From positions 1 through 24,506 of the IMG/VR virus record IMGVR_UViG_3300044712_000866: a stretch of 24,506 bases of DNA, one strand, 5' to 3'. This document shows positions 2,273-24,299 of the stretch, piece after piece; position 1 is the first letter of the stretch, and the number at the start of each line of letters is the position of its first letter. A program made the position numbers and the translations under genes. This stretch comes from a virus. The notes below the pieces were generated by a model, which was given only the letters and a program-made list of their open reading frames with translations, had not been told where the DNA came from and searched no databases.

Positions 2273-2353
2273 ATGAGGGGAGTAGAAGCGGGCTTGATGA
2301 CCGGCACCCCGAAGAACCATCCACAGGGAAACAACGAAAGGCAAACAGCGTGA
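2273..2353 (+). CDS. Possible 26-residue micro-ORF coupled to portal
   Basis: An ATG at 2273 opens a 26-residue frame that ends in a TGA at 2351-2353, overlapping the portal GTG start by four bases (GTGA). The product is hydrophilic (MTGTPKNHPQGNNERQTA at its end). It has no clear ribosome binding site of its own. The tight stop/start overlap matches other junctions in this block, which is the only argument for it. It may equally be chance open sequence in a 99-base leader. Confidence 0.25.
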   Translation: MRGVEAGLMTGTPKNHPQGNNERQTA

Positions 2354-7970: not shown

Positions 7971-9653
7971 ATGAACAAGAAGCAACTGGCCGAACAGGCC
8001 AAGAAATCCTACGAAGTTGAGTTCGCCAAAGGCAAGGAGGCGAACGCCGAAAACCTCAAATCCCTCAAGGCGGCTTGGGACGCCGCGCAAGCTGAAGCTG
8101 ACGCGGAATCCGAAGCGCAGGTCACAGAGCAGGAGCTTTCTGACCTCATCACCAAGAGCGTGAGTGCGCAGCTTGACCCGCTTAAGGCGAAGTTCGCCAC
8201 CATCCCCGACGAGAAGGCCATCGCGGCCATCGTGTCCAAGGTCATGACCGATACGGCGGACAAGAAGAACGTCGCGGAAATCGTCACCAAGAGCGTCAAG
8301 ACTGCTCTTTCAGAGTGCAAGACCAAGAGCCGTTTCGGTTACTCGGACGACAGCAGGGAAGTGGATTACGGAAACGGCCAGCAGAGCGAAGTCAGCCGGG
8401 GCACCATCGAGGTGAAGTTCTCTGAGACTGACCCGAAGAACCTGCCACTCCACCGGAAGCAGCTTCTGAACGTTATGCTCAAGGGGCCGAAGCATATGAA
8501 CGAGGGCATCCCCGAAAGTATGGTTGCCCGTGGCGAGGAACTCGGCGTGAAGATGCTGGAATCCAGCCGCCGCACCATCCAAGAGGGTGTGGTCGGCACG
8601 AAGAGTTGGGGCGAGGGACTGAAGCACTGGGAGATGATCGAGGGGCGCAAGGCTCTGACCTCCGACGCTTCGCCCGGCAGCAACCTCAACGAGATTGAGC
8701 TTTCCTCAATCCTTCAGCGCCGGTTGTATCTCGAAACCCCGCTTGGCGCTTTGTTCCAAGCTCGTGAAATTGATATGCCGGTTGAGTCCTACCCGTTCCC
8801 GCTCCGCACCACGCTGCCGTCCTTCTGGATTGGCGGTTCCGCTGGTGTTCAGCAGAACGTGGCGACTGACCCGAGTGACCCCGGCACCGCGCAGCCGACG
8901 CTCTCCAGCAAGAAACTGATGGGTGAGACGCAGTATTCATACGAAGCTGACGAGGCCTCCATCATCCCCATCCTCGGCTTTGTCGAGGAACAGTTGGCCA
9001 AGGGCGCTGCGGTGAGCTTGGAGACCATGCTCATCAACGGTGATGCGACCGCCGACGGCGGCACGCACATGGACAATGACACCGTGAAGGCGGGCACCGG
9101 GAACGCGTTCCATCCCCCGCAGTATGCGTGGGACGGTTTTCGCAAGCTGGCGCTGGACGTGGCCACGCTCAAGGTCACGAACTCCGGCAACAAAGCCGAG
9201 TTCGCGCTGTTCGAGGCGATGGAAGCCGCGCTTGGCAAGTATGCGCTTAACCCGGATGCTCTGGTGTGGGTCGTGGGACCGCTTGGCATGCGCCGGATGA
9301 AGAGCATCCCGCAGGTTCAGACGATGTATGCGTTTGGTCCGAATGCGACCATCGTCAGCGGCAAGCTGGACAAGTTCGACGGCATCAGCGTTCTCCCGTC
9401 CGAGTGGATGCGCGAGGATGTCGCCGCTACGGGCGTCAACACCGCTGCCGGCCCGAACACGTTCGGAAGTTGTTTGCTGGTGCGGCCTGACCAGTTCCTC
9501 ATGGGGCGTCGGCGCGCGTTCACCATCGAAATCTTCCGCCAGCCGTGGACGCAGACCAACCGTATCATCGCCTCGTTCCGCCGGGCGTTCACGCCTCTCG
9601 AAACTCCGAGTGCGACCATCAAATCTGTGGCCGTCGGCTACAACTGGATCTAA
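7971..9653 (+). CDS. Major capsid protein, HK97 fold
   Basis: This 560-residue protein forms the icosahedral head. The start ATG 7971 is chosen for the AGAAAGG site nine bases upstream; the frame runs back to GTG 7902. The first 110 residues are a charged helical region (KKSYEVEFAKGKEANAENL; repeated VTKSV/ITKSV segments), like the delta (scaffold-like) domain that the prohead protease removes in HK97. The rest matches HK97-type capsid style: an E-loop region, a middle section (ETPLGALFQAREIDMPVE), a segment like the spine helix (DEASIIPILGFVEEQLAKGAAVSLE) followed by INGDATADGGTH, and a C-terminal stretch (RRRAFTIEIFRQPWTQTN). It lies downstream of protease and upstream of connectors, as expected. 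Confidence 0.88.
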   Translation: MNKKQLAEQAKKSYEVEFAKGKEANAENLKSLKAAWDAAQAEADAESEAQVTEQELSDLITKSVSAQLDPLKAKFATIPDEKAIAAIVSKVMTDTADKKNVAEIVTKSVKTALSECKTKSRFGYSDDSREVDYGNGQQSEVSRGTIEVKFSETDPKNLPLHRKQLLNVMLKGPKHMNEGIPESMVARGEELGVKMLESSRRTIQEGVVGTKSWGEGLKHWEMIEGRKALTSDASPGSNLNEIELSSILQRRLYLETPLGALFQAREIDMPVESYPFPLRTTLPSFWIGGSAGVQQNVATDPSDPGTAQPTLSSKKLMGETQYSYEADEASIIPILGFVEEQLAKGAAVSLETMLINGDATADGGTHMDNDTVKAGTGNAFHPPQYAWDGFRKLALDVATLKVTNSGNKAEFALFEAMEAALGKYALNPDALVWVVGPLGMRRMKSIPQVQTMYAFGPNATIVSGKLDKFDGISVLPSEWMREDVAATGVNTAAGPNTFGSCLLVRPDQFLMGRRRAFTIEIFRQPWTQTNRIIASFRRAFTPLETPSATIKSVAVGYNWI

Positions 9654-9976: not shown

Positions 9977-10480
9977 ATGAAATACTTCAAGAACATCCCA
10001 ATCGCTCTCGCGCTGTTCGCGTCTGCGGCCACGCTCTCGGCTCAGGTCGTCGTTGGCATCCCTGGAAGCTACGGCAATTACGCCTTGTCGCTCACTCCGG
10101 CGTTTACGAACTACGTGCCACCGATCAACACCGGCACCGGTCCGGGTGTCACCAACTCCGCTCAAACTGCGGTGCTCGACCTGCGGTATTCACCGGAAGT
10201 CACGCTGCAATTCGAGGCGATGGAAACCAACAGCGTGCCGGGCAATGGCACCGCAGGAACCGCCACGCTCGTTTGGACCGTTAGCGCGGATGGCGTGACA
10301 TATGAATCGACGCATGGCGGCGTGCTTGTGTTGACGTTGAGCGAGACGAACCTCGTATGTCTGACGACCAACATCACCGCGCCGTATCCGTGGTTCAAGT
10401 TCACGACCGTTCGACACGTCGGCACTAATGGCGTGAAAGACATCGCGGTGAAGGCGTTCTCTCGAATTCCGAAGAACTGA
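9977..10480 (+). CDS. Secreted beta-rich protein with Sec signal peptide in head operon
   Basis: This is a 167-residue protein. Residues 1-22 form a classic Sec signal: Lys-containing start (MKYFKN), hydrophobic core (IALALFASAATL) and an LSA cleavage site before Gln. The rest is predicted beta-rich, with Thr, Asn, Val and Gly (TATLVWTVSADGVTYES; VLVLTLSETN). The W-T-V-S-x-D-G-x-x-Y-E pattern is like beta-sandwich decoration or head-fibre proteins. A secretion signal is unexpected between capsid and connector genes. The protein could be a host-exported moron gene, or a virion protein that passes through the host envelope. It is followed by a strong hairpin at 10520-10549. Confidence 0.7.
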   Translation: MKYFKNIPIALALFASAATLSAQVVVGIPGSYGNYALSLTPAFTNYVPPINTGTGPGVTNSAQTAVLDLRYSPEVTLQFEAMETNSVPGNGTAGTATLVWTVSADGVTYESTHGGVLVLTLSETNLVCLTTNITAPYPWFKFTTVRHVGTNGVKDIAVKAFSRIPKN

Positions 10481-10558: not shown

Positions 10559-11317
10559 ATGGGAAGACTCGTCAAACTCCAGTCCGGCGCATTCCGCTTT
10601 TACCCCACGAACCCTTACTGCTCGCTCACCGATGTCCTTGAGGAAATCAGGGAGTCGGAAAGCGCGGCAGCAGAGGGGAGTCAGAAGGCGAACGAACTCT
10701 TGCGCTCAATCGAGAGGGCGAGCCGGTTTGTAGACCGATGGATGGGGCGCGACTACGTGATGCACGACCTGACGGTGACGCCTTATGAGATTGACGAGGA
10801 ATCGCAGGGCTACACAAAGGACTACATTTTTCTCCCTTACTCACCGCTCATTGACCCAGCTTCCCTCATCGTTTCCATTGGCGGCAGTGCGCTCACCAAG
10901 GACACGGATTACCAAGTCATCACAGGCAGCTACGGCGACCTTTCCACGGACATTCGGCTGAAGTGTTTGAACGCGCTGGCGACATTCGCAGACGGCGGGC
11001 GCGGACCGTGGGGTATCAGCCGTGCGGACGGAAAGGTAATGCAGGTTTACGGGCTGTTTGGATATGACCAGCGCATCATCACGGATGACGACGGCAACGA
11101 GAGTTACGGCAGCACCGGCACGTATTCGGCTGAGAACATTCCCGCCGTCCCCGACCTCATCCGGCACGCTACGCGGCAGGTGGCGGCAGCGATGAGCGGG
11201 CATCTGCGACGGGAGTTCACCGATCTTAACGGCACACGCCAGAGCGTCACCAACCGGGACATAGACAAGCTGGCGATGGAAATCCTCGGCACCAAGCAGG
11301 GACTCATCAGGACATGA
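10559..11317 (+). CDS. Head-tail connector (adaptor) protein
   Basis: This 252-residue protein sits first in the connector block. The layout NPYCSLTDVLEEI, then an alpha-helical stretch with ASRFVDRWMGRDYV, then beta strands, is that of the HK97 gp6 / SPP1 gp15 adaptor family, which forms the ring under the portal. The usual family length is about 100-200 residues, so this one is long. Extra length lies in the middle (DDDGNESYGSTGTYSAEN). Its stop overlaps the next start (ATGA at 11314). The start at 10559 has no ribosome binding site, and a later start is possible, but the family-like part begins around residue 18. Confidence 0.7.
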   Translation: MGRLVKLQSGAFRFYPTNPYCSLTDVLEEIRESESAAAEGSQKANELLRSIERASRFVDRWMGRDYVMHDLTVTPYEIDEESQGYTKDYIFLPYSPLIDPASLIVSIGGSALTKDTDYQVITGSYGDLSTDIRLKCLNALATFADGGRGPWGISRADGKVMQVYGLFGYDQRIITDDDGNESYGSTGTYSAENIPAVPDLIRHATRQVAAAMSGHLRREFTDLNGTRQSVTNRDIDKLAMEILGTKQGLIRT

Positions 11318-12024
11318 CAATCAGGACGCGCAGCAACGTGACAGACGTGATGGAACTCACTGAGAGTTACCACCGGGCGCTGCGTATGCAGTTGCTTGAC
11401 CCGTCTGCGCGTCAGCGATTCGCGACGGATGTTGCGGAAGCGGGGAAAGCGCAGCTTGAGGAAGTGACCGAAAAGAACATCGACTCAACCGACCGTTGGA
11501 AGCTTTCCGGCATGGCGAGCAAGATGATGGGCAGAGGCGCTCACACGGTTGAGAAATCTTGGACGATTGGCGAGGTGACACAGGACAAAGTTTCGTGGGA
11601 GAACGACAACCCAATTTACAAGTTCTTGGACCTCGGCACCCGCGATCACGGTCCTGTCCGCGCCAAGAAGCTGTTCATCCCGCTCAACCAAGCAACTGCG
11701 CTCGCTTACCTAAACGGGACGTTGATTTGGGGCGATGGAATCGACGGTATGGTGACGCCCTACGAGGAAGAGTCGAAGCAGTGGGGCAAGAAACTAGGCA
11801 GCTACCGCAGGAAGAAAATCAAGGGCGGCGGGACGCGCAAACTTGTTTACGGCGTGGACTACATTCTCAAGGACCGCGTGCGCGGCGTCACCGCCCGGTT
11901 CATTACCCTGCAATTCCTCGACCAGTTCAAGGCGTTGCTGCGTGATGTGCTGATGCGTGGGCGTGAACGCTGGCGGCAGGAGGTCCGCAGCCAAGGATGG
12001 ATCCAACAGGGAGGTGGCGAATGA
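11314..12024 (+). CDS. Tail completion / head-closure protein, HK97 gp10-like
   Basis: This is a 236-residue protein. The central part has the recurrent HK97-gp10 pattern: an early helix (AEAGKAQLEEVTEKN), then a beta hairpin leading to FLDLGTRDHGPVRAKKLFIPL, where the family has a conserved Gly-Thr ... Gly-Pro ... Ala-Lys ... Leu. The C-terminal half is longer than usual and basic (SYRRKKIKGGGTRKL). Such proteins plug the neck and join the finished tail to the head. The gene is coupled by 4-base overlaps on both sides. A strong ribosome binding site for the next gene (GGGAGGTGG) lies in its last codons. Confidence 0.68.
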   Translation: MTIRTRSNVTDVMELTESYHRALRMQLLDPSARQRFATDVAEAGKAQLEEVTEKNIDSTDRWKLSGMASKMMGRGAHTVEKSWTIGEVTQDKVSWENDNPIYKFLDLGTRDHGPVRAKKLFIPLNQATALAYLNGTLIWGDGIDGMVTPYEEESKQWGKKLGSYRRKKIKGGGTRKLVYGVDYILKDRVRGVTARFITLQFLDQFKALLRDVLMRGRERWRQEVRSQGWIQQGGGE

Positions 12025-12500
12025 GCGCGACAGCCGATGTCATCCAAGCGGTCTATGCTCGACTTGAGGCAGGCGTTGCGACTGGCGGGCTGTTGGACGG
12101 ATGGACCTTTGAGCGTCAGCCGGTGGAAGTCATTCAAGGACTCGCGGACAAGCCATCGCTCCATGTTTCCATGCCGACGCTTGGTGAGGTTCAATCGGGG
12201 AGCAGGATGACCAAATACACCGTGCGCATCACGCTCGGCGTATCATCGCGCAAGACCGTCACGCGGGAAGGCGCGGAGAGCGTCATTGACGGTATCTCTG
12301 CTCACGCCGATGACGTGGACAAGGTGCGGGATGTTTTGGAGAAGCAGACGGACGGGCAGACGCCGGATGTGTTGCTCGGCGGGCTGCTCCTTGAACCGAT
12401 GCGTTTTGAGAACATCGAAGCGCGGATAAACGCTGACAGCTTCGGGACCGGCATGGTGCTTGTCCTGCCGCTGCGAGCCATACCAAGAGGACAACGATGA
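12021..12500 (+). CDS. Probable tail terminator / minor tail protein
   Basis: The 159-residue start at ATG 12021 is chosen because it overlaps the previous stop (ATGA) and has GGGAGGTGG about seven bases upstream; an in-frame ATG at 11997 is inside the previous gene. The protein has N-terminal helix ADVIQAVYARLEAG, then strands (YTVRITLGVSSRKT), helix and strands (GMVLVLPLRAI), the alpha/beta pattern of tail terminator proteins (lambda U-like). The call rests on this pattern and on its place between gp10-like and tail tube genes. I would not exclude a neck protein of another family. Confidence 0.5.
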   Translation: MSATADVIQAVYARLEAGVATGGLLDGWTFERQPVEVIQGLADKPSLHVSMPTLGEVQSGSRMTKYTVRITLGVSSRKTVTREGAESVIDGISAHADDVDKVRDVLEKQTDGQTPDVLLGGLLLEPMRFENIEARINADSFGTGMVLVLPLRAIPRGQR

Positions 12501-12721
12501 ATCATACCTTGCGGGCACTACTAGCCAAAGCGCCGGTTGAATTGCGTGACGCCTTCATCGATGCGCGGGCCGAACTGACCAACCCTCAAGCGCTGGCTCA
12601 GTATGACAAAGACATGGAGGACATGCTCCAAGACCGGGAGCACAAGCGCGAGACGGTTGCAACGCGCAGCAAGCATCAAAGCCCGATGACCAAGCGGGTT
12701 ACGGAGTTGCAGATTCACTGA
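12497..12721 (+). CDS. Small helical hypothetical protein
   Basis: This is a 74-residue, all-helical, charged protein (ELRDAFIDARAELTNPQALAQYDKDMEDMLQDREHKRETV). It starts in the stop of the gene before (ATGA at 12497) and is followed three bases later by the next gene. No family is recognised. Small helical proteins in this spot may help tail assembly, but that is only a guess from position. Confidence 0.55.
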   Translation: MNHTLRALLAKAPVELRDAFIDARAELTNPQALAQYDKDMEDMLQDREHKRETVATRSKHQSPMTKRVTELQIH

Positions 12722-12724
12722 TCA

Positions 12725-13486
12725 ATGGACGCTTTTGAGCAATTTCAGCAGGACATAGTTGCCATCCTCAACTCTGAGGAATGGATGGCATCGGTTCCCG
12801 TTGTCGCCTATCGCCCGCTCCGCATCAGCAGCGATGAGTCGGACACTGGCAGCGTGCTTGACGTGACCAAGCCGGAGATTGGGCAGGAAGAGTTCTGGCT
12901 CATCAAGAAGGACGGCACCTTGAGCGGGACGGGCGTGCGCGTGCCGATGCCGACGTTGAAGCTCGTCAGCAAGAATCTCAGCAAACCTCAACTTTTCATC
13001 GCCTGTCAAATCTTAGTCGCCGAACAGCCGGGTGTGAGCGAGGCACCGAACGGGTTGAACACGGCAGCGGGCGGACGACGGAGCGCGGAAGCGGTGGCGA
13101 TGAAGGTCATGGACCTGTTGCATCACCGGCATTTCGACGGGACGAACTTCCTCACCGTGGACGACAACGCCCTCGCCCCTGCCAGCGCGGTCCCGTATCT
13201 GCGCGCTTACAACGTCAACGTGTGGGCGACATTCCGCCGGTCATCGGATGAGCGCACACAACAGCCCGTCATTGATATCACGGCTGGCGTGGCAACTGTA
13301 ACCTGCCCCACGGTTGGTGCGGTCATTTACGTCACCACGGACGGTAGCACGCCAGTCAGGACGGAGCACAACCCGGCTTCCGCGCTTTACTCCGCGCCGT
13401 TCGCGGTCATCAGCGGCACACTCGTCAGGGCGGCAGCTTACAAGGCGGGCGCAATCGGTTCATCAATCAGCAACAAAACAGCGTAG
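12725..13486 (+). CDS. Tail completion-type protein with C-terminal chitobiase-C-like domain
   Basis: This is a 253-residue protein. Residues about 1-180 are an alpha/beta domain (EQFQQDIVAILNSEEWMAS, LRAYNVNVWATFRR) like neck or tail terminator proteins. Residues about 181-253 form a small Ig-like domain of the chitobiase / beta-hexosaminidase C-terminal type: ITAGVATVTCPTVGAVIYVT, TDGSTPVR, SALYSAPFAVISGTLVRAAA and a final YKAG, the usual pattern of this domain (strands, then TTDGSTP, then ...APF, then ...VRAAAYKAG). The same domain type occurs in two exported proteins at 20942 and 21772. Attached to a tail completion protein, it would be exposed on the virion and may bind sugar. The neck role is inferred from gene order. 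Confidence 0.6.
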   Translation: MDAFEQFQQDIVAILNSEEWMASVPVVAYRPLRISSDESDTGSVLDVTKPEIGQEEFWLIKKDGTLSGTGVRVPMPTLKLVSKNLSKPQLFIACQILVAEQPGVSEAPNGLNTAAGGRRSAEAVAMKVMDLLHHRHFDGTNFLTVDDNALAPASAVPYLRAYNVNVWATFRRSSDERTQQPVIDITAGVATVTCPTVGAVIYVTTDGSTPVRTEHNPASALYSAPFAVISGTLVRAAAYKAGAIGSSISNKTA

Positions 13487-13495
13487 GAGAACATT

Positions 13496-14425
13496 ATGGC
13501 ATTACCGAACATCGAATCACTGGAACTCGGACCGGCGAAATACACGCTTGGCTCTGGCGCAACCATCGCCAGCAAGAGCGGCGCAACGCTCACAACCTCG
13601 CTCTCGGACTACTCCGTGGAAGGCGAGCTTTCCGGCATGGTCCATCGTCGCCGGTTGCACTTGAAAGCGGAGGTTAGCTTCACGCCGGACGACCAGATCA
13701 CCACGAACATCATCGCCGCGCTGTTTCCGTTCCTGACGAGCGCGAGCGGCATCTCGGCGTTCATCGGATCGTCAGGAGCAGCGGTTCCGCTCAAGATCGA
13801 GACGATGGACGGCAAGAAGTTTGAGCTTCTCGACGCCTGCCTGACGAAGATGCCGGACCTGAACTTCGCCGTGAACAAGGGGTTGTTCGGCACTTGCACG
13901 TTCCGCGCCCGCCCTGCTTATGGCAAGGCTCCTGGTGCGGCGGACTCGCTCATCAAAAAGGGAACGAGCGCGTGGGTAGCGCCGACGTTTGCCAACGAGG
14001 ACTATTGTGTGGGCACCCCGACTCTGACTTGGGACACCACGACCATCGACAGCGAAGGTGATGACGGTTGGACGGCTCAGTTCAACGCCAAGACGAACGA
14101 CGTGATGGCTAACCAGAGGTTGCGTGACATCCGGTTTATGGGCTTCGAGATCATGGTCAGGGGCATCCCGACCGACGCCACGCCTGATACAGTAATCACG
14201 GCTGCGGCGTTGAACACGGATGTAGTGAACAGCGGAGAGAGCACGCGCACTATAGCCAAGCCGCTCGTCCTGACGATGGGCGGGCTTATCCTGACTATCC
14301 CGCTCGCGGCACCCGTGAGTGCTGGCTTCCGGTTCGGGGCCACCACCATCCGCAACGGCGAGATCGGGTTCGTCAGCGTCAAGAACTTCTCCGGGCCTGT
14401 CATCTGCACCATCGACAAGTCGTGA
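13496..14425 (+). CDS. Probable major tail tube protein
   Basis: This 309-residue protein has a strong ribosome binding site (TAGGAGA, overlapping the previous stop) six bases from ATG 13496. It is beta-rich with hydrophobic strands (RRRLHLKAEVSFTPDD; GLILTIPLAAPVSAGFRFG). The site, after terminator genes and before baseplate-like genes, is that of the tail tube protein that polymerises around the tape measure. The strong ribosome binding site fits a highly made protein. No single family motif was recognised, so it could also be a tail sheath or another large tail protein; there is no second large tube gene in this window. Confidence 0.6.
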   Translation: MALPNIESLELGPAKYTLGSGATIASKSGATLTTSLSDYSVEGELSGMVHRRRLHLKAEVSFTPDDQITTNIIAALFPFLTSASGISAFIGSSGAAVPLKIETMDGKKFELLDACLTKMPDLNFAVNKGLFGTCTFRARPAYGKAPGAADSLIKKGTSAWVAPTFANEDYCVGTPTLTWDTTTIDSEGDDGWTAQFNAKTNDVMANQRLRDIRFMGFEIMVRGIPTDATPDTVITAAALNTDVVNSGESTRTIAKPLVLTMGGLILTIPLAAPVSAGFRFGATTIRNGEIGFVSVKNFSGPVICTIDKS

Positions 14426-14853
14426 GGAAAATCGAGATACATCCAACCGAAGGGGCGCAAGCCCCGTTCCTCGTCGGGGATAACTCCTCAAGCCCAGTTA
14501 ACGGGCGAGGGTTCATCACCGATATTTCCCCTTCCTTCGATGCCCTCATCGAGATTGTTCCGTTGAGTCAGAGCGTCAGCCCGGCTACGTTCGACCGGGA
14601 GAACGAATCGACGCAAATCAGCGTTCGCGTTGACTACGGGTTCGACACCGAGGGAAAGCGGGATGATTTCCTGATTGATTTGCAGAGCAATGTCCCGCGC
14701 CGGGGACACGTTTACATCGGCATGGAAAGCTCGGCGTGGTGGATACCGAACGCGAAATGCCGCCCCATTCAAGCAAGCGCCATCGGTGAGGTTGCTTGCG
14801 TCGTCAACTATACCTTTGAAGGTCAGAAGATGCAGCGGAAGAAACCAGTATGA
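14422..14853 (+). CDS. Small beta-rich tail-region protein
   Basis: This 143-residue protein starts at GTG 14422, overlapping the previous stop (GTGA). It has strands (ALIEIVPLSQ, STQISVRVDYGFD, CVVNYTFEGQKMQ) and little helix. Family is unknown. The location after the tail tube gene fits a minor tail or tail-tip protein. It is coupled to the next gene by ATGA at 14850. Confidence 0.5.
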   Translation: MRKIEIHPTEGAQAPFLVGDNSSSPVNGRGFITDISPSFDALIEIVPLSQSVSPATFDRENESTQISVRVDYGFDTEGKRDDFLIDLQSNVPRRGHVYIGMESSAWWIPNAKCRPIQASAIGEVACVVNYTFEGQKMQRKKPV

Positions 14854-15473
14854 GCGCAACAGCCAGAGCAATCATCCGTGCGAAGATAAATCCGAACGCC
14901 ATCGGACAGACGTTCAAGGTAAACAACCAAGGCGCGGAGCCTATCATCTATCGTGGTGCAGGAGTTGATTTCTGGTTCTTCTTCGTGGATGACGACGGAA
15001 ACCCGATGGATATCAGCAACGTGTCTGACCTGTCCATCCTCGCTAAAGTGACAACATGGCAAGTGCTCGCCACCGTCACTTCGTCCGCATTTAACACCGC
15101 TTGCACGCTCGCCCAATGGGAGGCAGGTAGCGCAGCGCATTGCATCATTACCCTGCTCGGAACGGCGACCAACATCACAGCAGGCACCTACGATATGACG
15201 CTCAAGGCGCATACCTCTGACGATGCCGTTGACCTCGATTGCTTCGGTATTTCCAAGCTGAAGGTGCTGGATGTCGGGTTGACGGATGCTGCCGTTTCGC
15301 CTGCGCCTGACGAGACGATTGAAAGCGTGGTGAACGGGCTGCTTTCCGGTTACCTCAAGGCCATCGGCACTCCCGGCCAACCGCGATGGGAAGTTTCACC
15401 GAACGGCCAGTGGCGCATCGCGCAGACCATCGATGACAGCGGCCAGCCTTCAACCCTCATTGAGCAAGTATGA
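14850..15473 (+). CDS. Baseplate-like or tail protein, BppU-N-like start
   Basis: This is a 207-residue protein. The first part carries the pattern of baseplate upper proteins: YRGAGVDFWFFFVDDDGNP followed by MDISN and strands (LSILAKVTTWQVLAT), then LAQWEAG, as in proteins with a BppU_N-type domain that start with a strand, FxVGDDx..., DGNP and DLS. The last third is less regular (GYLKAIGTPGQPRWEVSPNG). It is followed directly by the first fibre gene (overlap ATGA at 15470), so a role in holding the fibres is plausible. The family match is by recall and loose. Confidence 0.5.
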   Translation: MSATARAIIRAKINPNAIGQTFKVNNQGAEPIIYRGAGVDFWFFFVDDDGNPMDISNVSDLSILAKVTTWQVLATVTSSAFNTACTLAQWEAGSAAHCIITLLGTATNITAGTYDMTLKAHTSDDAVDLDCFGISKLKVLDVGLTDAAVSPAPDETIESVVNGLLSGYLKAIGTPGQPRWEVSPNGQWRIAQTIDDSGQPSTLIEQV

Positions 15474-17530
15474 ACCTCATCAAACCAATCAGTCTCACGT
15501 CGGCTCTCTTTCGGCTCATCGTGGTTGCCGGACTCATCATCTATTCCAAGGCACACGCGGCAACCCGCGTTGAAGCAACCGTCACGGTCACCAACACGGT
15601 GGCGACTGGCGACCTCATCCAGTTCAATTCTCAAGCGCGGTTGTGGACGAACAACACGCTCGCTTCGACCAACTGGATTATCACCACGAACAGCGCCAAA
15701 GCGACGGCGACAAACCTGTTCGCGTATGCTGTGGTGAACCCTTGGAGCAACGTGGTTCAGGTTTCCTACGCTTCCCCGACTTCTCTCTTGTTCTACGCGA
15801 ATTTCGACGTGCCACTTGTTGGAACCGTGACGGGCAGTTGGGCGACCATCAGCTTCCGCACGAACTACATCCAGACAAGCGGGCCGGTGACGATGCCTTA
15901 CCCTACGAACATCACAGAGGCGATGAGGACGAACCAGATGACCGCGTTAATGGAGAGTTTGCGGACGAATTCGCAAATCGCTCCGCTAGCGACAGGCGCG
16001 TTCTCCAACCTTGTTGACCGGACAAGTGCGCAGACGATTTACGGCAAGACTTACACCGGCACGGCGGTTCTCACGAACGCCTACCTGACGAACTCCGTCC
16101 TCGCTTCGCCGAAATCCACTAACGCGGTCAACTACGGCAACGCCTTCAGTTCTCCGGGGACGAACACGAACTCGGAACAGTTCGGTTCATTGGCAAACGC
16201 CAGCGGGGCAGGCGCGCTTGCGGTTGGTTATTCTTCAGGAGCAATCAGCAACGGCTCAATCGCAATTGGATACTCGTCAGCAGTGAGCGCGAATCATGGT
16301 ATCGGCATTGGAACGCTCGCGGACGTGTCAGGATTCTACGGGGTTGCCATTGGCGGCACGGCGCACGTTACGGCAGACTACGGGGTTGCTCTTGGCTTCG
16401 GGGCGCACGTTACGCACGCAAACTCAATCAGCATCGGCAAGAGCGTCAGCAGCGTTAACACAAACGAAGTGAGATTGGGAGGATCTCAGGATGTTGTCAT
16501 CGGCGGATTGTTGTTTGCTGAGAAAGGCGCAACGAACTTCGCGTTGAAAGGCGTCACCACGAATACCGCGCTCATCAAGGGTGGCATCTACACGAATGCC
16601 GTCTTGCAGAATCCAATTGCAACCAACATCCAGAGCGTCGGCATCAGCAGCACGTCGAGCAACCGAATCGGTGGTGCGCTTGTCATCGTTTCGTCAAACC
16701 TAACTTCCGCTGTCAATGGGGCGAACAATCTCAGCATCGCGCCAAACGTCGCTTGGCTTGTGGTGAGCGGTCCCACGGCATCATGGAGCATCAGCGGCAT
16801 CGAAGGCGCGGCGGCAATCAGCGCCGGGCGTGTCCTATGGCTCAAAAACGACACCAGCTACATCCTGACGCTCTCGCACCTGTCCGGCCTTGAGGCGACG
16901 GCTGGATTCAGGCTGTCCAACCCTGCCGGAGCAGACGGAACACTTGCAGCCGGAATGACCGTCCAGCTTCGCCACGACGGCAGCTATTGGCAGATGATCT
17001 CCGGCGTCACTGCCACCGAGTCGGTTTATTGGGATGACCTACGGGTGCCCCTGAGCAGCACCCGCATCGGTGCCACCTCCCCGACCATCCGCACTTTCAT
17101 GGGCAATACCCGCGCCTGGGGCTTTGATGCGGGCACGGCGCAGATGATGGAGTTCGAGACGCAGATCCCGCATGGCATCTCCACCAACTACGGCATCCGG
17201 CCTCACCTGCATTGGACGCTCATGGACGGGGCCGGGGGCGCCTCGAACGTGGTCTGGGGGCTGGAAGTCACCATCGCCAACGGCGGCGCCGTTTTCCCCT
17301 CGACCACGACCTATTACATGACCAACACCTGCGGCACGAATTTCTTCCATACCAAAGGCGCGTTTCCCGAGCTGACCGGCCTCAAGGAAAGCGCGGTAGT
17401 GGTGGGCCGCCTCTTCCGGGACGCCGCCAACGCCAGCGACAATGTGGCCGTGGAGGCCTTCCCGCTCTCGCTCGACTGGCACGTTCCCAAAGTGCGCCTC
17501 GGCAGCGTTGCCGAATACGGAGACTACTGA
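15470..17530 (+). CDS. Exported tail-fibre-like adhesin with YadA-type repeats
   Basis: This is a 686-residue protein. Residues 1-31 form a Sec-type signal (SALFRLIVVAGLIIYSKAHA) with an AHA site. Residues 247-330 are six 14-residue repeats of the YadA-head/Hep_Hag type (xxGALAVGYSSGAIS; NGSIAIGYSSAVSA; DYGVALGFGAHVTH), which form a trimeric left-handed beta-roll. Residues about 517-686 are a C-terminal domain found in phage fibre-like proteins (VYWDDLRVPL, a PHGISTNYGIRPHLHW core, VVWGLEV). The rest is Thr/Asn-rich strand repeats. It is first of five overlapping signal-bearing genes. The C-terminal 500 bases have higher GC than the rest (42/60 at 17221-17280 versus 33/60 at 16501-16560), suggesting a swapped module. 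Start ATG 15470 overlaps the previous stop. Confidence 0.75.
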   Translation: MNLIKPISLTSALFRLIVVAGLIIYSKAHAATRVEATVTVTNTVATGDLIQFNSQARLWTNNTLASTNWIITTNSAKATATNLFAYAVVNPWSNVVQVSYASPTSLLFYANFDVPLVGTVTGSWATISFRTNYIQTSGPVTMPYPTNITEAMRTNQMTALMESLRTNSQIAPLATGAFSNLVDRTSAQTIYGKTYTGTAVLTNAYLTNSVLASPKSTNAVNYGNAFSSPGTNTNSEQFGSLANASGAGALAVGYSSGAISNGSIAIGYSSAVSANHGIGIGTLADVSGFYGVAIGGTAHVTADYGVALGFGAHVTHANSISIGKSVSSVNTNEVRLGGSQDVVIGGLLFAEKGATNFALKGVTTNTALIKGGIYTNAVLQNPIATNIQSVGISSTSSNRIGGALVIVSSNLTSAVNGANNLSIAPNVAWLVVSGPTASWSISGIEGAAAISAGRVLWLKNDTSYILTLSHLSGLEATAGFRLSNPAGADGTLAAGMTVQLRHDGSYWQMISGVTATESVYWDDLRVPLSSTRIGATSPTIRTFMGNTRAWGFDAGTAQMMEFETQIPHGISTNYGIRPHLHWTLMDGAGGASNVVWGLEVTIANGGAVFPSTTTYYMTNTCGTNFFHTKGAFPELTGLKESAVVVGRLFRDAANASDNVAVEAFPLSLDWHVPKVRLGSVAEYGDY
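16208..16459 (+). repeat. Six 42-base tandem repeat units, YadA-head-like
   Basis: Six 14-codon units follow each other in frame, each with the pattern (small)-x-(A/S)-(I/V)-(A/G/S)-(I/L/V)-G-x. DNA similarity is highest between units four and five (TACGGGGTTGC... twice, each followed 20 bases later by GCGCACGTTACG). The protein repeats match trimeric autotransporter adhesin heads. Confidence 0.75.
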
Positions 17531-19140
17531 TGAAGACACTCCTCACCCTCGCAATCCTCGCCCTACTCACCGCTTCGTCCTTCGCGGCGACCAACGCGGT
17601 GGTTATCTTCGACTACAAGACGTTCATGGGCGCGGGTGGTTCACAGATGAACGTCGTCATGCAGCCGTCCGACGAGCCGCGCACGAACGGGACCAGCATC
17701 ATTACCGGGGAAGCGGTCACACGGAAGACGACCACGGCTGGCATCGCCACGTTCACGAACGTCTTTTGGGGGACGAACGCCTATTACCGGGTTGACCTGC
17801 AAGCGCCCGGTAAGGTTCGGACGGTTTATATCCTTGTCCCGACCAACACGACGCAATACGCGGCGGACTTACTGGTGACGACGGTAGGAACTGGCAGCGT
17901 GACGGCTGGCTATTCGCAGGCGCAAGCCAACGCAGCGTTCATCGCCAAGAATAATGGAGTCGGGACGAACACCAGCCTCTATTCTCCAAGGTTGCAGCCG
18001 GGCAGCGGGACGAGCAACCAAGTCTGGAGTCTTACGAATGCGACGACAGGACAGGGTGAATGGAGAACGGCGGCAGCGACGGCTGGCATTGACACGAATG
18101 TCCCCATTGCGTTCAGCACGAATGTATCGGTGGGCGGGACGTTCTACGCTGGCACTGGTTCGATGTCCGATTTAAGCGCGTCCACGCTGACGCTCGATTC
18201 CCCGCTAGAAGTCATGGTCGGTGGCACCGGGAGGAGCAACCTGACGGCTGGAACTCTGCTCGTCGGCAACGGGACGAACCCACCATCCCTGCTCTCTGGA
18301 AGCTCTGCCGGTCACGTTGCGACTTGGAACGGTAGTGCATGGGTAAGTTCGAATGCTCCTTCCAGTTCAGGAAGTAATGGCATCACCACGACCATCTCCA
18401 ACCTGATGGATCTGGAGGAATTCTGGTTGCAGCTTGGAACCTACACGGAGACGAATCAAGCCGGGCTGTCATCGAATGAGGTTTGGACGGTGGCGACGGA
18501 TGCCGCGACAACCTATTACGGAGCGAACTTCAACAATGATTTTGTCGCGCAAGTCGAGGCGAACAATCTAGCGGCGGCTGGTTATGTTGATTCATCGGTT
18601 GCTCCGAAACTGAACGCAACCAACGGAACGGCCTACGGACTGACCGCCAGCGGAAGCTTCACCGGGCTTGGCACCGGCCTGACCAACGCGAGCGGAGAAA
18701 CATTTATTGGTGCCAGCACGGCGCAGACGATTGCGACCGGAGCCACCAATGGGCTTGTCCGCACTAACGACACGACTTGGTTTCAGTCGAAGCGCGTGGA
18801 TTCATCCGTTGCCACGGCAGCATTGCAGACTATAGACCTTGCGAACGATTCAACCTTGAGCATCACGAATGCCGTGGCTGGTGCTGTCAACGTGTGGCTT
18901 ACGAATTGTGTTGACCGCCGGACGTTCGTTCTGCGCTGTGTGGCTGATGGATCTGCACGGACTCTCAGCTTTACCAATGCCTGCGGATACACCATGAACG
19001 TCGTGGCCACGAATGGATTCTCTGTCCTAACGCTTCCGCAATTTCCTGTCGCAGCGAACAAGATCGGAACTGTAGTCGGTCGCGTGTGGATTTCCGGCGC
19101 TGTAACCAACATTGACTTGTTCGGCAACGTCCAACCATGA
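17530..19140 (+). CDS. Exported tail-fibre-like protein with GGTG repeats
   Basis: This is a 536-residue protein from ATG 17530; a longer frame from 17212 is only the shadow of the previous gene. Residues 1-19 are a Sec signal (MKTLLTLAILALLTASSFA, then ATN). An early beta-sandwich (NAVVIFDYKTFMG, RTVYILVPTNTT) is followed by Thr/Asn/Ser-rich repeats. A classic fibre segment, VGGTGRSNLTAGTLLVGNGT and LLSGSSAGHVATWNG, is the pattern found in many phage fibre proteins. The C-terminal end (TFVLRCVADG; GRVWISGAVTN) is a strand-rich cap. It is fully overlapped at both ends by four bases, as part of the exported set. Nothing enzymatic is seen. A role as a secreted or virion-borne adhesin is inferred. 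Confidence 0.7.
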   Translation: MKTLLTLAILALLTASSFAATNAVVIFDYKTFMGAGGSQMNVVMQPSDEPRTNGTSIITGEAVTRKTTTAGIATFTNVFWGTNAYYRVDLQAPGKVRTVYILVPTNTTQYAADLLVTTVGTGSVTAGYSQAQANAAFIAKNNGVGTNTSLYSPRLQPGSGTSNQVWSLTNATTGQGEWRTAAATAGIDTNVPIAFSTNVSVGGTFYAGTGSMSDLSASTLTLDSPLEVMVGGTGRSNLTAGTLLVGNGTNPPSLLSGSSAGHVATWNGSAWVSSNAPSSSGSNGITTTISNLMDLEEFWLQLGTYTETNQAGLSSNEVWTVATDAATTYYGANFNNDFVAQVEANNLAAAGYVDSSVAPKLNATNGTAYGLTASGSFTGLGTGLTNASGETFIGASTAQTIATGATNGLVRTNDTTWFQSKRVDSSVATAALQTIDLANDSTLSITNAVAGAVNVWLTNCVDRRTFVLRCVADGSARTLSFTNACGYTMNVVATNGFSVLTLPQFPVAANKIGTVVGRVWISGAVTNIDLFGNVQP

Positions 19141-20945
19141 GAACCGCCGCACTAATCATCCTATTGTTCTGCGCGAATTGTCTCGGGCAGTTGCCACCGG
19201 AGTTCTATCTACTGAGTAGGACGGCACAGACAACGGCAGCATCGCAGACGTGGAGCAATATATTCAGCGACACATTTGATTCCTATGCTGCTGGTCCGCT
19301 TGGAACTAACAGGACAATGGAGCCTGGAATCGGAAATTGGCGAGTTGTGCAAAACGACGGTGCAATGGCGGTGACAAACTCTGTTTTCTTCGGAGAGACG
19401 AACATTTTTCCCGGAAGCATGTTGATTGCAACTGGACAGGTTTCGGTGACGGCTGGTGATTTAGCTCTGATCAAATCCAATGCGGTGGCAGCAGCGCCCG
19501 GATTGTGTTACTTGGCGAAGATCAGGCAGGCCGGAAACAACGCATCGCTCTACGGTTTCGAGCGAAGCACCATCACTGGGACTTTAGACGGAGCGGCATT
19601 GACGTTTAATGGCGCTAACGTGCAAATCTCAATCAACGGGAACCCATATACGCAATGGCAGCAAATCGCTCACAATCAGGACTACGAAATTGCGATAGTC
19701 CTCGGCACTAAAGGAACCTGGTATTTCATACGCGGAGGGGAATGGGACGCTAGCGGAACGAGTCTTTACGGCTTTGCTGATTGGACTCTGGCCGGTTTCG
19801 ACTACATCACGCCCGACGCAACTCTGTATCCGTGCGCTTATATCGGAGGTCCGTCTAACACATGGATTGATTCCATTCGTCTGGTGCAACTCGGCTCTGA
19901 GTGGACAAACAAATTCAACTGCGCCGATGACTTTGTGGAGTCGTCCACGAACGGCAGTGTGATTACCATGTCACACGATTCGATGGTGGACCATACCATC
20001 ACGGCGGCAACAGGCGTCGAACAGGAGTTACGTGCCAGAATTAGAAACCCATCGAACTATATTTGCTTGAGAATGAATCAAACTGAAAGCTGGTCGAAGC
20101 TGATCCATGTGACAGACGGCACGGAAACACAGATTAGTTCCAACGCGCAAACATTCGCAAATGGAACAAAGTATCGCGCTCAAATCTTCTGCTGGGGATC
20201 AAATGTTTTGGCAAAAATTGCCACATCCTCTCGTGGCACATCCACCACGATGCCTGTGTTTACAAACGACATGTTCACGGCCTACTCCAGTCATGCCGGT
20301 AGCAACTTTGTTTCGTGGCAGTTGAATCCAACGAACACCATCGGCCCCGCTCCTAGAGCTAGGAAAATACTTACTTACGGAGATTCAAAAATGTTTGGCG
20401 CATTCGAGGCAAACAGCATCACAATTCCTTTCGGGGCGCTCGCTGGATGGCAGAGGATGCTGCAATCTGCGGTTAATACCAACAACACTCTCACAATTAC
20501 GATGGCTCGCTCTGGACTTGGAGGTATGAATGTGGGACAGCTTGCAAACATGGTTACAAATCGACTAATCTCGCTGCCGAGGGTTGTCACTCCTGAATTT
20601 ATTTGCGTGAACATGGGAGCGAACGATTGCGCCACGACCGTTGATACAGCATTCACGAACAACTACGCAACGGTGTTGGATAGGCTCCATGAGAAGTTTC
20701 CGGCAGCGAAGGTGTATGTTGTAGGTATTTGGGTAAGGCCAGGCTGCGTGAACCAAGCGGCAATTCGTGGATGCGCCACAACATTGATCTCGCAGAGGTC
20801 TGAGTGGTGTTTTGCTGGCCCAGATGAGTCTGTTTATCTTGAAAACGGGGACGGCGGAGCATCGCTGATGCACGACGGGACTCACCCGAATCATGCGGGA
20901 TACATTAAGACTGCGGAACAATGGCGTGCAGTTTTAGGACTATGA
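19137..20945 (+). CDS. Exported LamG-like plus SGNH hydrolase protein
   Basis: This is a 602-residue protein. Residues 1-17 form a Sec signal (AALIILLFCANCLG). Two LamG/concanavalin-like segments follow (FSDTFDSYAAGPLG... NWRVVQNDG, and FNCADDFVESST). The C-terminal half (from about residue 410) is a SGNH/GDSL hydrolase: block I YGDSKMFG with Ser417, block III MGANDC with Asn496, and block V DGTHPNH with D580 and H583. These enzymes remove acetyl or acyl groups from sugars, so this could trim host surface glycans. The gene is more AT-rich than its neighbours (24 GC in 60 bases at 20161-20220) and seems newly acquired. Two genes before and two after are exported fibres. The stop overlaps ATG 20942. 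Confidence 0.78.
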   Translation: MRTAALIILLFCANCLGQLPPEFYLLSRTAQTTAASQTWSNIFSDTFDSYAAGPLGTNRTMEPGIGNWRVVQNDGAMAVTNSVFFGETNIFPGSMLIATGQVSVTAGDLALIKSNAVAAAPGLCYLAKIRQAGNNASLYGFERSTITGTLDGAALTFNGANVQISINGNPYTQWQQIAHNQDYEIAIVLGTKGTWYFIRGGEWDASGTSLYGFADWTLAGFDYITPDATLYPCAYIGGPSNTWIDSIRLVQLGSEWTNKFNCADDFVESSTNGSVITMSHDSMVDHTITAATGVEQELRARIRNPSNYICLRMNQTESWSKLIHVTDGTETQISSNAQTFANGTKYRAQIFCWGSNVLAKIATSSRGTSTTMPVFTNDMFTAYSSHAGSNFVSWQLNPTNTIGPAPRARKILTYGDSKMFGAFEANSITIPFGALAGWQRMLQSAVNTNNTLTITMARSGLGGMNVGQLANMVTNRLISLPRVVTPEFICVNMGANDCATTVDTAFTNNYATVLDRLHEKFPAAKVYVVGIWVRPGCVNQAAIRGCATTLISQRSEWCFAGPDESVYLENGDGGASLMHDGTHPNHAGYIKTAEQWRAVLGL

Positions 20946-21775
20946 AAACCATCCTCTCTCTCACAATCCTCTGCCTGACGTTTCAAGCGCAGTCCGCGCT
21001 GTGGAGCTTCAAAGTGTTCACTGACGGGCTTTTATCCAACGGTGTGCCGTGGGGCGTTACGAATGCACTTGCGCCCGTTTTCAGTCCGACTTCTGGTGCC
21101 GTTCCGCAGTTGGTTGAAATCACGTCCGCCGGAAACCTCATTTATTGGACGACAAACGGCGACACTCCTTCGACAAATTTAGCGGGGATACCTTCCGGCC
21201 AAAGCGTGCTTGTGACTTCAACGAATCACCCGTTGAAAGCTCTGGCATGGTTCGCGGACGGTTATCGCCTGCCGTCTACGGTGACGGAGGCTTACTATAC
21301 GAATGCCGTGACAGCTTGCTCTCCGTGGGTTTCTCAGACAAACGGAAGCGACTACTACGATGCCGCGAACACCTACACGTTCGCGCAGAAAATACGCGTC
21401 ACCAACGAAACTACGATTACCGTTTGCGCCGTGCGCTTGCGTTCATGGACTCCGGTTGACGGTGCGCTAACGGTTTCGTTTTGGAGCACAGCGAATGGAA
21501 CCGGGACGCAATACGGCTCAACCTCCGGTTCGCAGACTGTTTCCACGGCAGGCGTGAGCGTTTACACGACGAACGAATTCACGTTTGCTAGTGCGCCGGT
21601 CCTGACGGGTGATGCATTCATGGTCATCACGGCAACGACTGACAGCCCGCGCATCTGGGCCGACGTGAGCGGAGGCGCGGCATATCAGGATACCGATTAC
21701 GCAATCTATCGCGGCGGGACGGTCCTCGCTGCCGGCGCTGCGGATTTCTGGTTTGAAATCGACAGCAATCAATGA
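20942..21775 (+). CDS. Exported protein with chitobiase-C-like domain
   Basis: This is a 277-residue protein. The start ATG 20942 overlaps the previous stop; an ATG at 20921 lies inside the previous gene. Residues 1-19 are a Sec signal (MKTILSLTILCLTFQAQS). Residues about 38-120 form a chitobiase-C-type Ig-like domain: PVFSPTSGAVPQLVEIT, YWTTNGDTPST, VTSTNHPLKALAWFADGY. The remainder is a beta-sandwich (TITVCAVRLRSW, GDAFMVITATT, ADVSGGAAYQDTDY) like small carbohydrate-binding modules. No catalytic motif is seen. Its job is probably binding to surface sugars, either on the virion or at the host surface; this is inference from the domains and the operon. Confidence 0.68.
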   Translation: MKTILSLTILCLTFQAQSALWSFKVFTDGLLSNGVPWGVTNALAPVFSPTSGAVPQLVEITSAGNLIYWTTNGDTPSTNLAGIPSGQSVLVTSTNHPLKALAWFADGYRLPSTVTEAYYTNAVTACSPWVSQTNGSDYYDAANTYTFAQKIRVTNETTITVCAVRLRSWTPVDGALTVSFWSTANGTGTQYGSTSGSQTVSTAGVSVYTTNEFTFASAPVLTGDAFMVITATTDSPRIWADVSGGAAYQDTDYAIYRGGTVLAAGAADFWFEIDSNQ

Positions 21776-23517
21776 GACTCGCGCTTGCCATACTGCTTTG
21801 CTGCGCATCGGCTCATGCCGCGACGCTCTCGCTCTCGGGTGATGGTGCGTGGCCGGCGGCGTCGCCCGGTGACACGGTGGAGTTCTCAGGCACGCGCACG
21901 AATGGCTTGACCATCACGACGAGCGGCACCGAGTCGAACCGCATCACGTTGCTGTTCGCGGCTGGCGCGAAGATTCAGGCCGCGACGTTCTACGGGCAGA
22001 CAGCCAATGCCGCGATTTATGCGAGCGGCGTTTCCAACCTCACGATTGACGGCGGAAGCGACGGACTGATTGAGGCGACCGATTGCGGAAGCCCTAATAC
22101 GCACAGCAACACCAACGGATCGCGGGGCATCTCTTTTGCGGCGGCGGTGCAGAACATCACCGTGCAAAACCTACGCGTCGTTGGCATGTATCACCGGACA
22201 GACACCAATGACCCAGCACTTGGCGGCAGCGGAGACGGCATTCGCTGGGATTACGGTGGCGTCAATCTGCGCGTCCAAAACTGCACCGTTGAGGACATGG
22301 GAAACCCGATTTACATCTCCTATACCGGGGCAACCTGCTCCAACTACTTCGTCATCTCGAATCGACTGTTGAGTTCATCCGTTGGGTTGCAAATTGGCTC
22401 TGCGGCGTCCGGCTCCATCCTCACAAATTGCTTGGTGTCCGCGAACATCATCAGTAACGCGAGCGCGGCCACATGGGATGGAGATCCGAACAATGCGCCC
22501 GTCCACAACAATGTTCACGTCGCCGGACTGCATATTTGGGCCGTCCATTCGGGGAGTTCGCTGCGCGGGTTGCGCGTGGAACGCAACCGGACGGATGGAA
22601 TCGCGAACCACATTTCAACCACGGCGTATGAACTGGAAGGCTACCTGGACGCTCCTCTCGTTTACAACAACATCGCGGTCGGCAACATGACCAATGGCCA
22701 CACCTTGAGCGGCTACATTTACCTCAAAGGTTGTTCCAACTCAGTGGTGGCAAACAATACTGTGGTTGGGAATCCGGCGGGGACTGGCAATGGCATCATC
22801 TTTCTCGGATGGACTGACAATGAGCAATCGGTAGTCACAAACAATTTCGTTAAGGGGTGCAACTTCGGCATCTACGAGAGCATCACGGGACTGCTTCGCT
22901 ACGCAAACCGGAATGTCTATTCGCCGGGCACCCAGTTCCGGCGCAACGGCGTGCAAGGTTACGATTGGGCGGGGTGGCAGGGAACCGGCGCGGATGCGAA
23001 CGGATCAACGAATGTCCCGACGCTCAATGCGGATTACTCGCCTAGCACGAATGACACGGTGCTTGTCGGAAATGGCGTCAGTCTCACCAGCTTCGGAATC
23101 AGCAACGATTTTGCCGGGGTGCTGAGGACGAATCAGACTTGGACAATTGGAGCTTGGGAAGTAGGTAGCACAAACCTCGCGCCGGTTGGACAGACTGATG
23201 CCCCGACGTTCTCACCTGCGAGCGGAACGGTGTTCACCAATTCAGTCATCGTTACGTTGAGTTGCGCGACGGCGGGCGCATCGGTGTGGTATTCGACCTC
23301 GGGCACGGCCACGACAAACTCGACCCTCTACACGGGCGCGTTGACGCTCTCGGCATCGGCTACGATTAGCGCAATCGCCCAAGCGCCGGGCATGACGGCC
23401 AGCGCCACGGCCAGCGCGACGTTTACGAAATACACCGCGCCTGAACCGGAACCACCAGCAGCAAGCGGAAGTTTTTCTGTTGATAACCTGCAATTGAACC
23501 GGGTTATCCGCAGATGA
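21772..23517 (+). CDS. Exported right-handed beta-helix protein with C-terminal chitobiase-C-like domain
   Basis: This is a 581-residue protein. Residues 1-16 are a Sec signal (MRLALAILLCCASAHA). Residues about 20-450 show rungs of a parallel beta-helix: VSNLTIDGGSDG, VQNITVQNLRVVG, NLRVQNCTVEDM, SNSVVANNTVVGNP, QSVVTNNFVKGC, the N/V/I ladder typical of pectate-lyase-like and tailspike proteins. Residues about 486-560 are a chitobiase-C-like domain (APTFSPASGTVFTNSVIVT, VWYSTSGT, STLYTGALTLSASATI). A Pro/Glu linker and a basic tail (RVIRR) close it. Such proteins in phage are often depolymerising tailspikes, but no catalytic residues can be assigned here. It overlaps both neighbours by four bases. 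Confidence 0.75.
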   Translation: MRLALAILLCCASAHAATLSLSGDGAWPAASPGDTVEFSGTRTNGLTITTSGTESNRITLLFAAGAKIQAATFYGQTANAAIYASGVSNLTIDGGSDGLIEATDCGSPNTHSNTNGSRGISFAAAVQNITVQNLRVVGMYHRTDTNDPALGGSGDGIRWDYGGVNLRVQNCTVEDMGNPIYISYTGATCSNYFVISNRLLSSSVGLQIGSAASGSILTNCLVSANIISNASAATWDGDPNNAPVHNNVHVAGLHIWAVHSGSSLRGLRVERNRTDGIANHISTTAYELEGYLDAPLVYNNIAVGNMTNGHTLSGYIYLKGCSNSVVANNTVVGNPAGTGNGIIFLGWTDNEQSVVTNNFVKGCNFGIYESITGLLRYANRNVYSPGTQFRRNGVQGYDWAGWQGTGADANGSTNVPTLNADYSPSTNDTVLVGNGVSLTSFGISNDFAGVLRTNQTWTIGAWEVGSTNLAPVGQTDAPTFSPASGTVFTNSVIVTLSCATAGASVWYSTSGTATTNSTLYTGALTLSASATISAIAQAPGMTASATASATFTKYTAPEPEPPAASGSFSVDNLQLNRVIRR

Positions 23518-23655: not shown

Positions 23656-24039
23656 ATGAACGTAACATCAGCGGAAATCAAAGGGTCTGTTAAGGGTATG
23701 AAAGCAGCCATCACTGGTTCAATCTCCTCCATTTTCGGCGCTGGCTTCTCGCTGGCAACAGTGACAACAGCACCAATTCTAAGCGATGTTGCTGCCGTCA
23801 TTGCAATCATTGCCGCAATCTTGACGTGTGTTCAACTGTTGGCGAACACGCGCAAGATTGAAGCGGAGCGTGAAGGGGCGAATCTCGCCAAGCGCATCAA
23901 AGAGATTGAATTCGAGGCATGGCTGAAGTCGAAGTGCCGCGATTGCATGGAGCCGCAGAACTGCGCTTTCCCCGAACACCGTCCGCCGACCTGCAAATAC
24001 TCAACCTCAACCGAAGCAAAGAAAGAGAAGCACGAATGA
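23656..24039 (+). CDS. Membrane protein with Cys-rich C terminus
   Basis: This is a 127-residue protein. Residues about 17-38 are amphipathic to hydrophobic, and 42-64 form a clear transmembrane helix (LSDVAAVIAIIAAILTCVQLL). A charged helix (RKIEAEREGANLAKRIKEIE) follows. The C-terminal tail has four Cys in the pattern C-x2-C-x5-C-x9-C (C94, C97, C103, C113) with His108, which may bind a metal. It might be a holin with one or two membrane segments, or an envelope-associated tail factor. The Cys cluster is unusual for a holin. The stop overlaps the next start (ATGA at 24036). Confidence 0.6.
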   Translation: MNVTSAEIKGSVKGMKAAITGSISSIFGAGFSLATVTTAPILSDVAAVIAIIAAILTCVQLLANTRKIEAEREGANLAKRIKEIEFEAWLKSKCRDCMEPQNCAFPEHRPPTCKYSTSTEAKKEKHE

Positions 24040-24299
24040 AAATCATCGGCTCGATATGGGTCAAGCTATCCTGCTACATGCTGCTTGCGCTCATTGCTCC
24101 CTTCTCCGCGTTCATGGGTGACTATTTCGGTGCGTGGAAAGAGGACAAGACCGTGCAATTCGTCGTCCCGGCGTGGGTGTGGATTTACCAAGGGCTGCTA
24201 GGCGTGGCGAACATGGCGCTCGTCTTGCGGACGTTCCTTGATTCGTCCTATGCCCGACACGTTGACGAGGTGAAAGAAGAAGAGAAGAACCAACTTTGA
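24036..24299 (+). CDS. Small two-segment membrane protein
   Basis: This is an 87-residue protein from ATG 24036, overlapping the previous stop by four bases; an upstream in-frame ATG at 23919 lies inside the previous gene. Two hydrophobic segments (about 8-27 and 42-64: CYMLLALIAPFSAFMG; FVVPAWVWIYQGLLGVANMAL) are followed by a charged tail (DEVKEEEKNQL). The pair with the gene before resembles a holin/antiholin set, but no endolysin is visible in the window, so lysis is only a suggestion. It is followed by the coiled-coil gene six bases on. Confidence 0.55.
   Translation: MKIIGSIWVKLSCYMLLALIAPFSAFMGDYFGAWKEDKTVQFVVPAWVWIYQGLLGVANMALVLRTFLDSSYARHVDEVKEEEKNQL

Follow-up and report, generated by a model that had tools for sequence, protein, structure and literature searches.

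Consecutive genes with predicted Sec signal peptides in the late operon of a tailed phage

Organization of the late operon

The window (the whole stretch of DNA analysed here) is an entire IMG/VR virus contig of 24.5 kb with a G+C content of 57%. Its content is that of a tailed-phage late operon (Table 1; genes are named after their first position). The tape measure and tail tip genes are absent, the window stopping ahead of the tail tip, and no integrase was identified in it. The intein in the portal carries homing-endonuclease domains (residues ~287-616); the portals of the relatives L107, L117 and others are, unlike that of the window, uninterrupted. A scan of genome contigs for the host gave no useful match, and Verrucomicrobiota is our guess from the style of the proteins.

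Table 1. Features of the window and related loci. SP, predicted signal peptide, given with the residues that follow it; G004 coordinates refer to its reverse complement.
Feature	Position	Strand	Length (aa)	Remarks
Large terminase (TerL)	464-2056			PHROG 38, 3e-104
Portal	2350-4803			Intein-interrupted
Protease	5662-6852
Major capsid protein	7971-9653	+		PHROG 617; no SP
Small SP protein	9977-10480	+	167	SP MKYFKNIPIALALFASAATLSA, then Q (9977-10042); directly after major capsid gene
Head-tail adaptor	10559-11317
Head-tail joining and tail genes	10559-15473	+		No SP; run into the five-gene array
SP protein 1	15470-17530	+	686	SP to SKAHA, then AT (15470-15559)
SP protein 2	17530-19140	+	536	SP MKTLLTLAILALLTASSFA, then ATN (17530-17586); no family
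SP protein 3	19137-20945	+	602	SP MRTAALIILLFCANCLG, then QLP (19137-19187)
SP protein 4	20942-21775	+	277	SP MKTILSLTILCLTFQAQS, then A (20942-20995)
SP protein 5	21772-23517	+	581	SP MRLALAILLCCASAHA, then AT (21772-21819)
Holin-like small membrane protein	23656-24039	+		After the five-gene array
Small membrane protein	24036-24299	+		Overlaps gene 23656
G004 array 1	14900-20298			Amid head genes
G004 array 2	24715-31597			Amid head genes
G004 homologue of 9977	24271-24705			With SP
G005 probable homologue of 9977	17902-18354			SP score 3.95

The five array genes overlap the gene before them by 4, 1, 4, 4 and 4 bases, in order. An earlier sequence-only reading of this DNA had described a chain of 4-base overlaps, which is accurate for four of the genes; 17530 overlaps its neighbour by a single base. 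Promoter signals within the array or leading into it showed no excess over shuffled sequences, and by the same comparison neither a promoter nor a terminator of the array's own stood above chance.

Predicted signal peptides

Proteins were screened with a home-made Sec/signal peptidase I (SPase I) rule that looks for a basic n-region, an uncharged hydrophobic core and small residues at positions -3 and -1. The open reading frames of the array lie where the sequence-only reading had placed them, and its claim that five consecutive genes each begin with a Sec signal holds under this rule: 15470, 17530, 19137, 20942 and 21772 all pass, with scores of 4.28-5.62. A sixth gene that it had not mentioned, 9977, passes with a score of 5.33. 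None of the remaining structural genes of the window does so, and the only further pass is a weak one, the holin-like 23656 (2.06). With a score of 4.0 used for the controls, two of 115 annotated CDS from control phages pass; six genes out of 23 would then be expected with P ~2e-6 and five in a row with P ~3e-8, the genes being treated as independent. In six-frame scans, the maximum per 9 kb was three among 105 control loci compared to five in the window, and four were also reached in the relative G005 (described below) from antisense ORFs. Because the antisense strand adds noise to such scans, the control on annotated CDS is preferred.

Wrongly assigned start codons were considered as a source of these N termini and rejected, both by the gene overlaps and by the lack of a good restart without the signal. 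Among downstream in-frame starts, only the GTG at codon 25 of 20942 is preceded by a Shine-Dalgarno-like sequence, making such restarts unlikely. The outcomes that the sequence-only reading had named as speaking against its claim, a missing signal in most of the genes (judged here by our rule) or homologues consistently starting after the hydrophobic segment, did not occur.

The hydrophobic N termini might instead be membrane anchors or incidental features that are not cleaved. The prediction is purely rule-based, the scores of passing proteins vary (a homologue of 9977 in G005 reaches 3.95) and some structural proteins of the relatives G004 and G005 bear a hydrophobic leader of another kind, all of which would suit such an interpretation. 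Against it, all six proteins combine a basic n-region with small residues at both -3 and -1, and a glutamine comes immediately after a small residue close to the predicted site of cleavage in ~11 of the 17 signal-bearing proteins encoded by G004, G005 and the window (9977, 19137 and 20942 in the window), whereas ~20% of random windows show this pattern. In some phyla, genuine SPase I sites would be expected to have such a glutamine. We consider uncleaved or incidental segments very unlikely, and all five array N termini are confirmed as canonical predicted Sec/SPase I signal peptides. The glutamine pattern resembles the Bacteroidetes Q-rule and may bear on the phylum of the host.

Domains of the array proteins

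Three of the array proteins resemble known families. The product of 15470 has YadA-head-like repeats (YadA_head, 2e-4, 22.1 bits compared to a Pfam cut-off of 25) and a weak phage-depolymerase C-terminal domain (Phage_depo_C, 1.9e-4, just below the Pfam cut-off), and its PDB matches are EibD (1.6e-4) and YadA (invasin; 4.3e-4). A YadA-type trimeric autotransporter was rejected for this protein because the C-terminal barrel is missing: the YadA beta-barrel anchor gave no Pfam match up to E = 1. The product of 19137 ends in an SGNH/GDSL hydrolase domain (Lipase_GDSL_2, 1.2e-8) in which the GDS, GAND and DGTH motifs read as intact, and that of 21772 in a chitobiase-C-like domain (CHB_HEX_C_1, 2.7e-12) preceded by repeats suggestive of a right-handed beta-helix. 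In profile searches no domain rose above cut-off in 17530 or 20942, the latter having only a weak Fn3-associated match below it. The description as fibre or adhesin, which the sequence-only reading had applied to all five proteins, thus fits one or two of them.

BLAST among the array proteins revealed neither similarity nor a common N-terminal anchor domain. Searches of 50,697 phage records by tblastn with 21772, 17530 and 15470 (full length and C-terminal part) gave no match. The AlphaFold models of 9977 and 21772 were too poor for use (mean pLDDT 46 and 35, respectively). Beyond residue 25 there are ten cysteines in 19137 and seven in 21772. Outside the array, a protein of the head-tail region that lacks a signal peptide (12725-13486) has the same CHB_HEX_C_1/Fn3-associated domain as the signal-bearing 21772.

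Comparison with related phages

Scanning viral contigs with single proteins gave no match for the capsid, tail-tube and 14850 proteins, and for TerL and portal only distant phages and one fragment that was nearly identical. A TerL alignment scan identified G004 (63 kb), whose TerL is 60% identical to that of the window, and a search with a TerL DNA motif identified G005 (23.8 kb, TerL 56%) and smaller fragments. The comparison across relatives that the sequence-only reading had proposed was informative: G004 has two comparable arrays, G005 has neither, and both have a signal-bearing protein after the capsid gene.

G004 encodes ~10 signal-bearing proteins of this kind, most of them within the two arrays and mostly with 4-base overlaps. 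Array 1 encodes two small signal-bearing proteins, a 699-residue fibre-type protein, a LamG protein whose twin-arginine-like N terminus fails the Sec rule, and a 618-residue protein with a signal peptide resembling that of 21772. Array 2 encodes a 351-residue protein, a LamG lectin, a 174-residue protein, a 1,333-residue protein that begins with a probable alpha/beta-hydrolase, and a holin-like protein; the lectin and the 174-residue protein have signal peptides by eye and fail the rule owing to an arginine near the cleavage site. The small holin-like membrane protein ends this array much as one follows the array of the window, with no demonstrable homology between the two. Apart from the 19-residue signal-peptide match of 21772, the proteins of the window array showed no detectable homology to those of either G004 array.

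The 699-residue protein (gene 15549, with signal peptide) matches PHROGs 4209 and 7032, both of tail fibres, as well as fibre proteins from other phages; the two such homologues that were inspected lack a signal peptide. G004 has in addition an ordinary tail fibre after its tail-tip genes, which is without a signal peptide and matches PHROGs of tail fibres with values down to 2.8e-15.

The two relatives are collinear from TerL to the adaptor genes, with identities of 58% for the portal, 49% for a 70-residue protein, 75% for the protease, 64% for the decoration protein, 69% for the capsid and 45-53% for the adaptor genes. In G005 nothing lies at the junction of the portal and the 70-residue protein, which is the site of array 1 in G004; array 2 is likewise missing, the post-capsid signal-bearing protein of G005 being directly followed by the homologue of G004 gene 31598. 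The G004 arrays are modular insertions or deletions between head genes that leave the core untouched, and as G005 lacks both at exact junctions, they are cassettes presumably dispensable for the core particle. By analogy, the window array may be a cassette too.

Presence in one relative and absence in another, seen for the relatives' arrays rather than for that of the window, would also fit lysogenic conversion, in which passenger adhesins and enzymes improve the surface of the lysogen, as would the export of proteins that are host-like and contain adhesin and lectin domains. In the window, however, the overlaps bind the array to the late operon and no integrase was found, and a lysogen gene set becomes less likely because the array has nothing promoter-like of its own. 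We regard this explanation as decidedly improbable.

The small signal-bearing protein 9977 is shared more widely than the arrays. Its G004 homologue is 29% identical over 126 residues (E-value: 5e-5, in a small database), and the similarity of the probable G005 homologue is weaker. In all three phages a small signal-bearing protein adjoins the capsid gene, where decoration proteins usually lie, and it does so even though the capsids of the window and G004 belong to different families (PHROG 617 and PHROG 1005, respectively). It is mainly this conservation that keeps a virion role under consideration for the signal-bearing proteins, namely that they are virion fibres or decorations which, after export, fold in the periplasm and bind capsids or tails when lysis mixes the compartments. 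The translational coupling of the arrays into the virion operon, the tail-fibre matches of G004 15549 and the occurrence of the C-terminal domain of 21772 in the head-tail protein 12725 point the same way, as do the cysteines of 19137 and 21772, since some of the proteins may need disulfides. On the other hand, G005 presumably assembles without arrays, no shared N-terminal anchor was detected among the array proteins by BLAST, and we know of no precedent among tailed phages for virion parts routed through the envelope. We judge this explanation unlikely, though it keeps some weight. A two-compartment assembly in which virion surface proteins, the capsid-adjacent decoration protein among them, are exported by Sec, reach their mature form in the periplasm and are added to the particle only at lysis is in our estimate rather improbable.

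Proposed role of the array

By the usual view, tailed phages are assembled entirely in the cytoplasm, and their late contact with the envelope is limited to holins, endolysins and spanins. The reading that we consider probable, if only just, is that the array is a late-expressed accessory cassette of Sec-exported, glycan-binding or glycan-modifying proteins acting on the envelope of the infected cell. The five genes and 9977 would be expressed late together with the virion genes, and their products would be made in the cytoplasm, pass through SecYEG, be cleaved by the host signal peptidase I and end in the periplasm, at the cell surface or beyond. There, the glycan modules (a YadA-like stalk, an SGNH hydrolase and a chitobiase-C-like domain and, from G004, LamG lectins together with a probable alpha/beta-hydrolase) would bind and alter the host's own surface polysaccharides ahead of lysis. 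The most likely benefit would be masking or modification of the receptor, which would block superinfection and keep progeny from re-adsorbing to the dying cell and its debris.

Action on the envelope is favoured for four reasons. First, the arrays behave as cassettes. Second, they carry carbohydrate-directed modules. Third, the tail fibre of G004 is a separate protein without a signal peptide. Fourth, an export signal would be useful mainly before lysis. The sequence-only reading had left two alternatives, an exported set of surface proteins and virion parts that pass through the host envelope; the former is better supported, given the present-or-absent cassettes, this separate fibre and the lack of a signal in fibre homologues, and the latter less so. 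Counterpoints are that the signal-peptide rule is home-made, that two of the five array proteins have no recognisable domain, that 9977 occupies the usual position of a decoration protein and that the window array matches the G004 arrays in nothing but one signal peptide. If the proposal is true, there are phages that employ whole sets of exported glycan-active proteins, in swappable late cassettes, to remodel the surface of their host ahead of lysis, which would account for fibre-type genes oddly placed among head genes. For annotators, it is a caution that a fibre-like phage gene does not always encode a receptor-binding protein.

Relation to known systems

Phage-made exported envelope proteins such as T5 Llp act in superinfection exclusion or receptor blocking. 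Like the proteins proposed here, they work on the surface of the infected cell, but they are single small proteins, while the window encodes several large ones whose modules are directed at carbohydrates. The arrays have modules in common with tail fibres, tailspikes and capsule depolymerases, namely trimeric-adhesin-like and SGNH hydrolase modules and a probable beta-helix. The tail-fibre homologues differ in lacking the signal peptide that all five proteins of the window array have, and the ordinary fibre of G004 follows the tail tip, whereas its signal-bearing arrays lie amid head genes. An exported tailspike-like protein is known from Pantoea stewartii, in which WceF, a trimeric beta-helix enzyme, acts on the bacterium's own exopolysaccharide (PMC7949094); in contrast to the window proteins, it is bacterial, has a Tat signal and is encoded in an EPS cluster outside any phage (PMC7949094).

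A close parallel is provided by the 'Nixviridae' prophages of Porphyromonas gingivalis, for which the published account describes several Sec-signal proteins of unassigned function that may modify the host envelope (PMC10367356). Like the phage of the window, these are tailed, and their Sec-signal proteins partly have glutamine at the mature N terminus, following the Q-rule (PMC10367356). Since phage-encoded Sec-signal proteins are already described there, the term 'undescribed system' used in the sequence-only reading is too strong. The passages of that account covered here do not describe an overlapping multi-gene cassette of large fibre-, lectin- and hydrolase-type proteins in the virion operon (PMC10367356), and the literature covered, which is incomplete, held no description of such multi-gene signal-peptide cassettes there. 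The unusual part is the presence of multi-gene cassettes within the virion operon; phage proteins with signal peptides are known as such. For P8625, the first Verrucomicrobia phage genome, the authors report no signal peptides (PMC4642752). This phage, like that of the window, is tailed, and it has tail fibre and lectin genes (PMC4642752). Under our rule, the 19 genes of its structural region gave one weak pass, an 82-aa protein scoring 3.25 (below 4.0).

Related observations in other phages

Genes with signal peptides also occur in two environmental phages, between TerL and portal in L102 (11495-11899 and 11933-12841) and in the virion module of L099 (11318-13162). As these phages are unrelated, such genes in virion modules may be more widespread. 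Another relative, L113, has a gene with a signal peptide (MNKNFLSVILGAIAILGLVLPSQA, followed by QTG) upstream of TerL (5907-6365).

A different N-terminal leader of ~30 residues, hydrophobic and then basic, is common to decoration/scaffold (PHROG 673) and tail-tube (PHROG 807) proteins encoded by G004 22684 and 34735 and G005 16266 (reverse-complement coordinates). The shared leader, MN..LGA.LLLAI.S.CAW...RKR...NM, precedes the part that matches the family and appears to be translated, because most differences between its two copies in G004 fall at third positions of codons.
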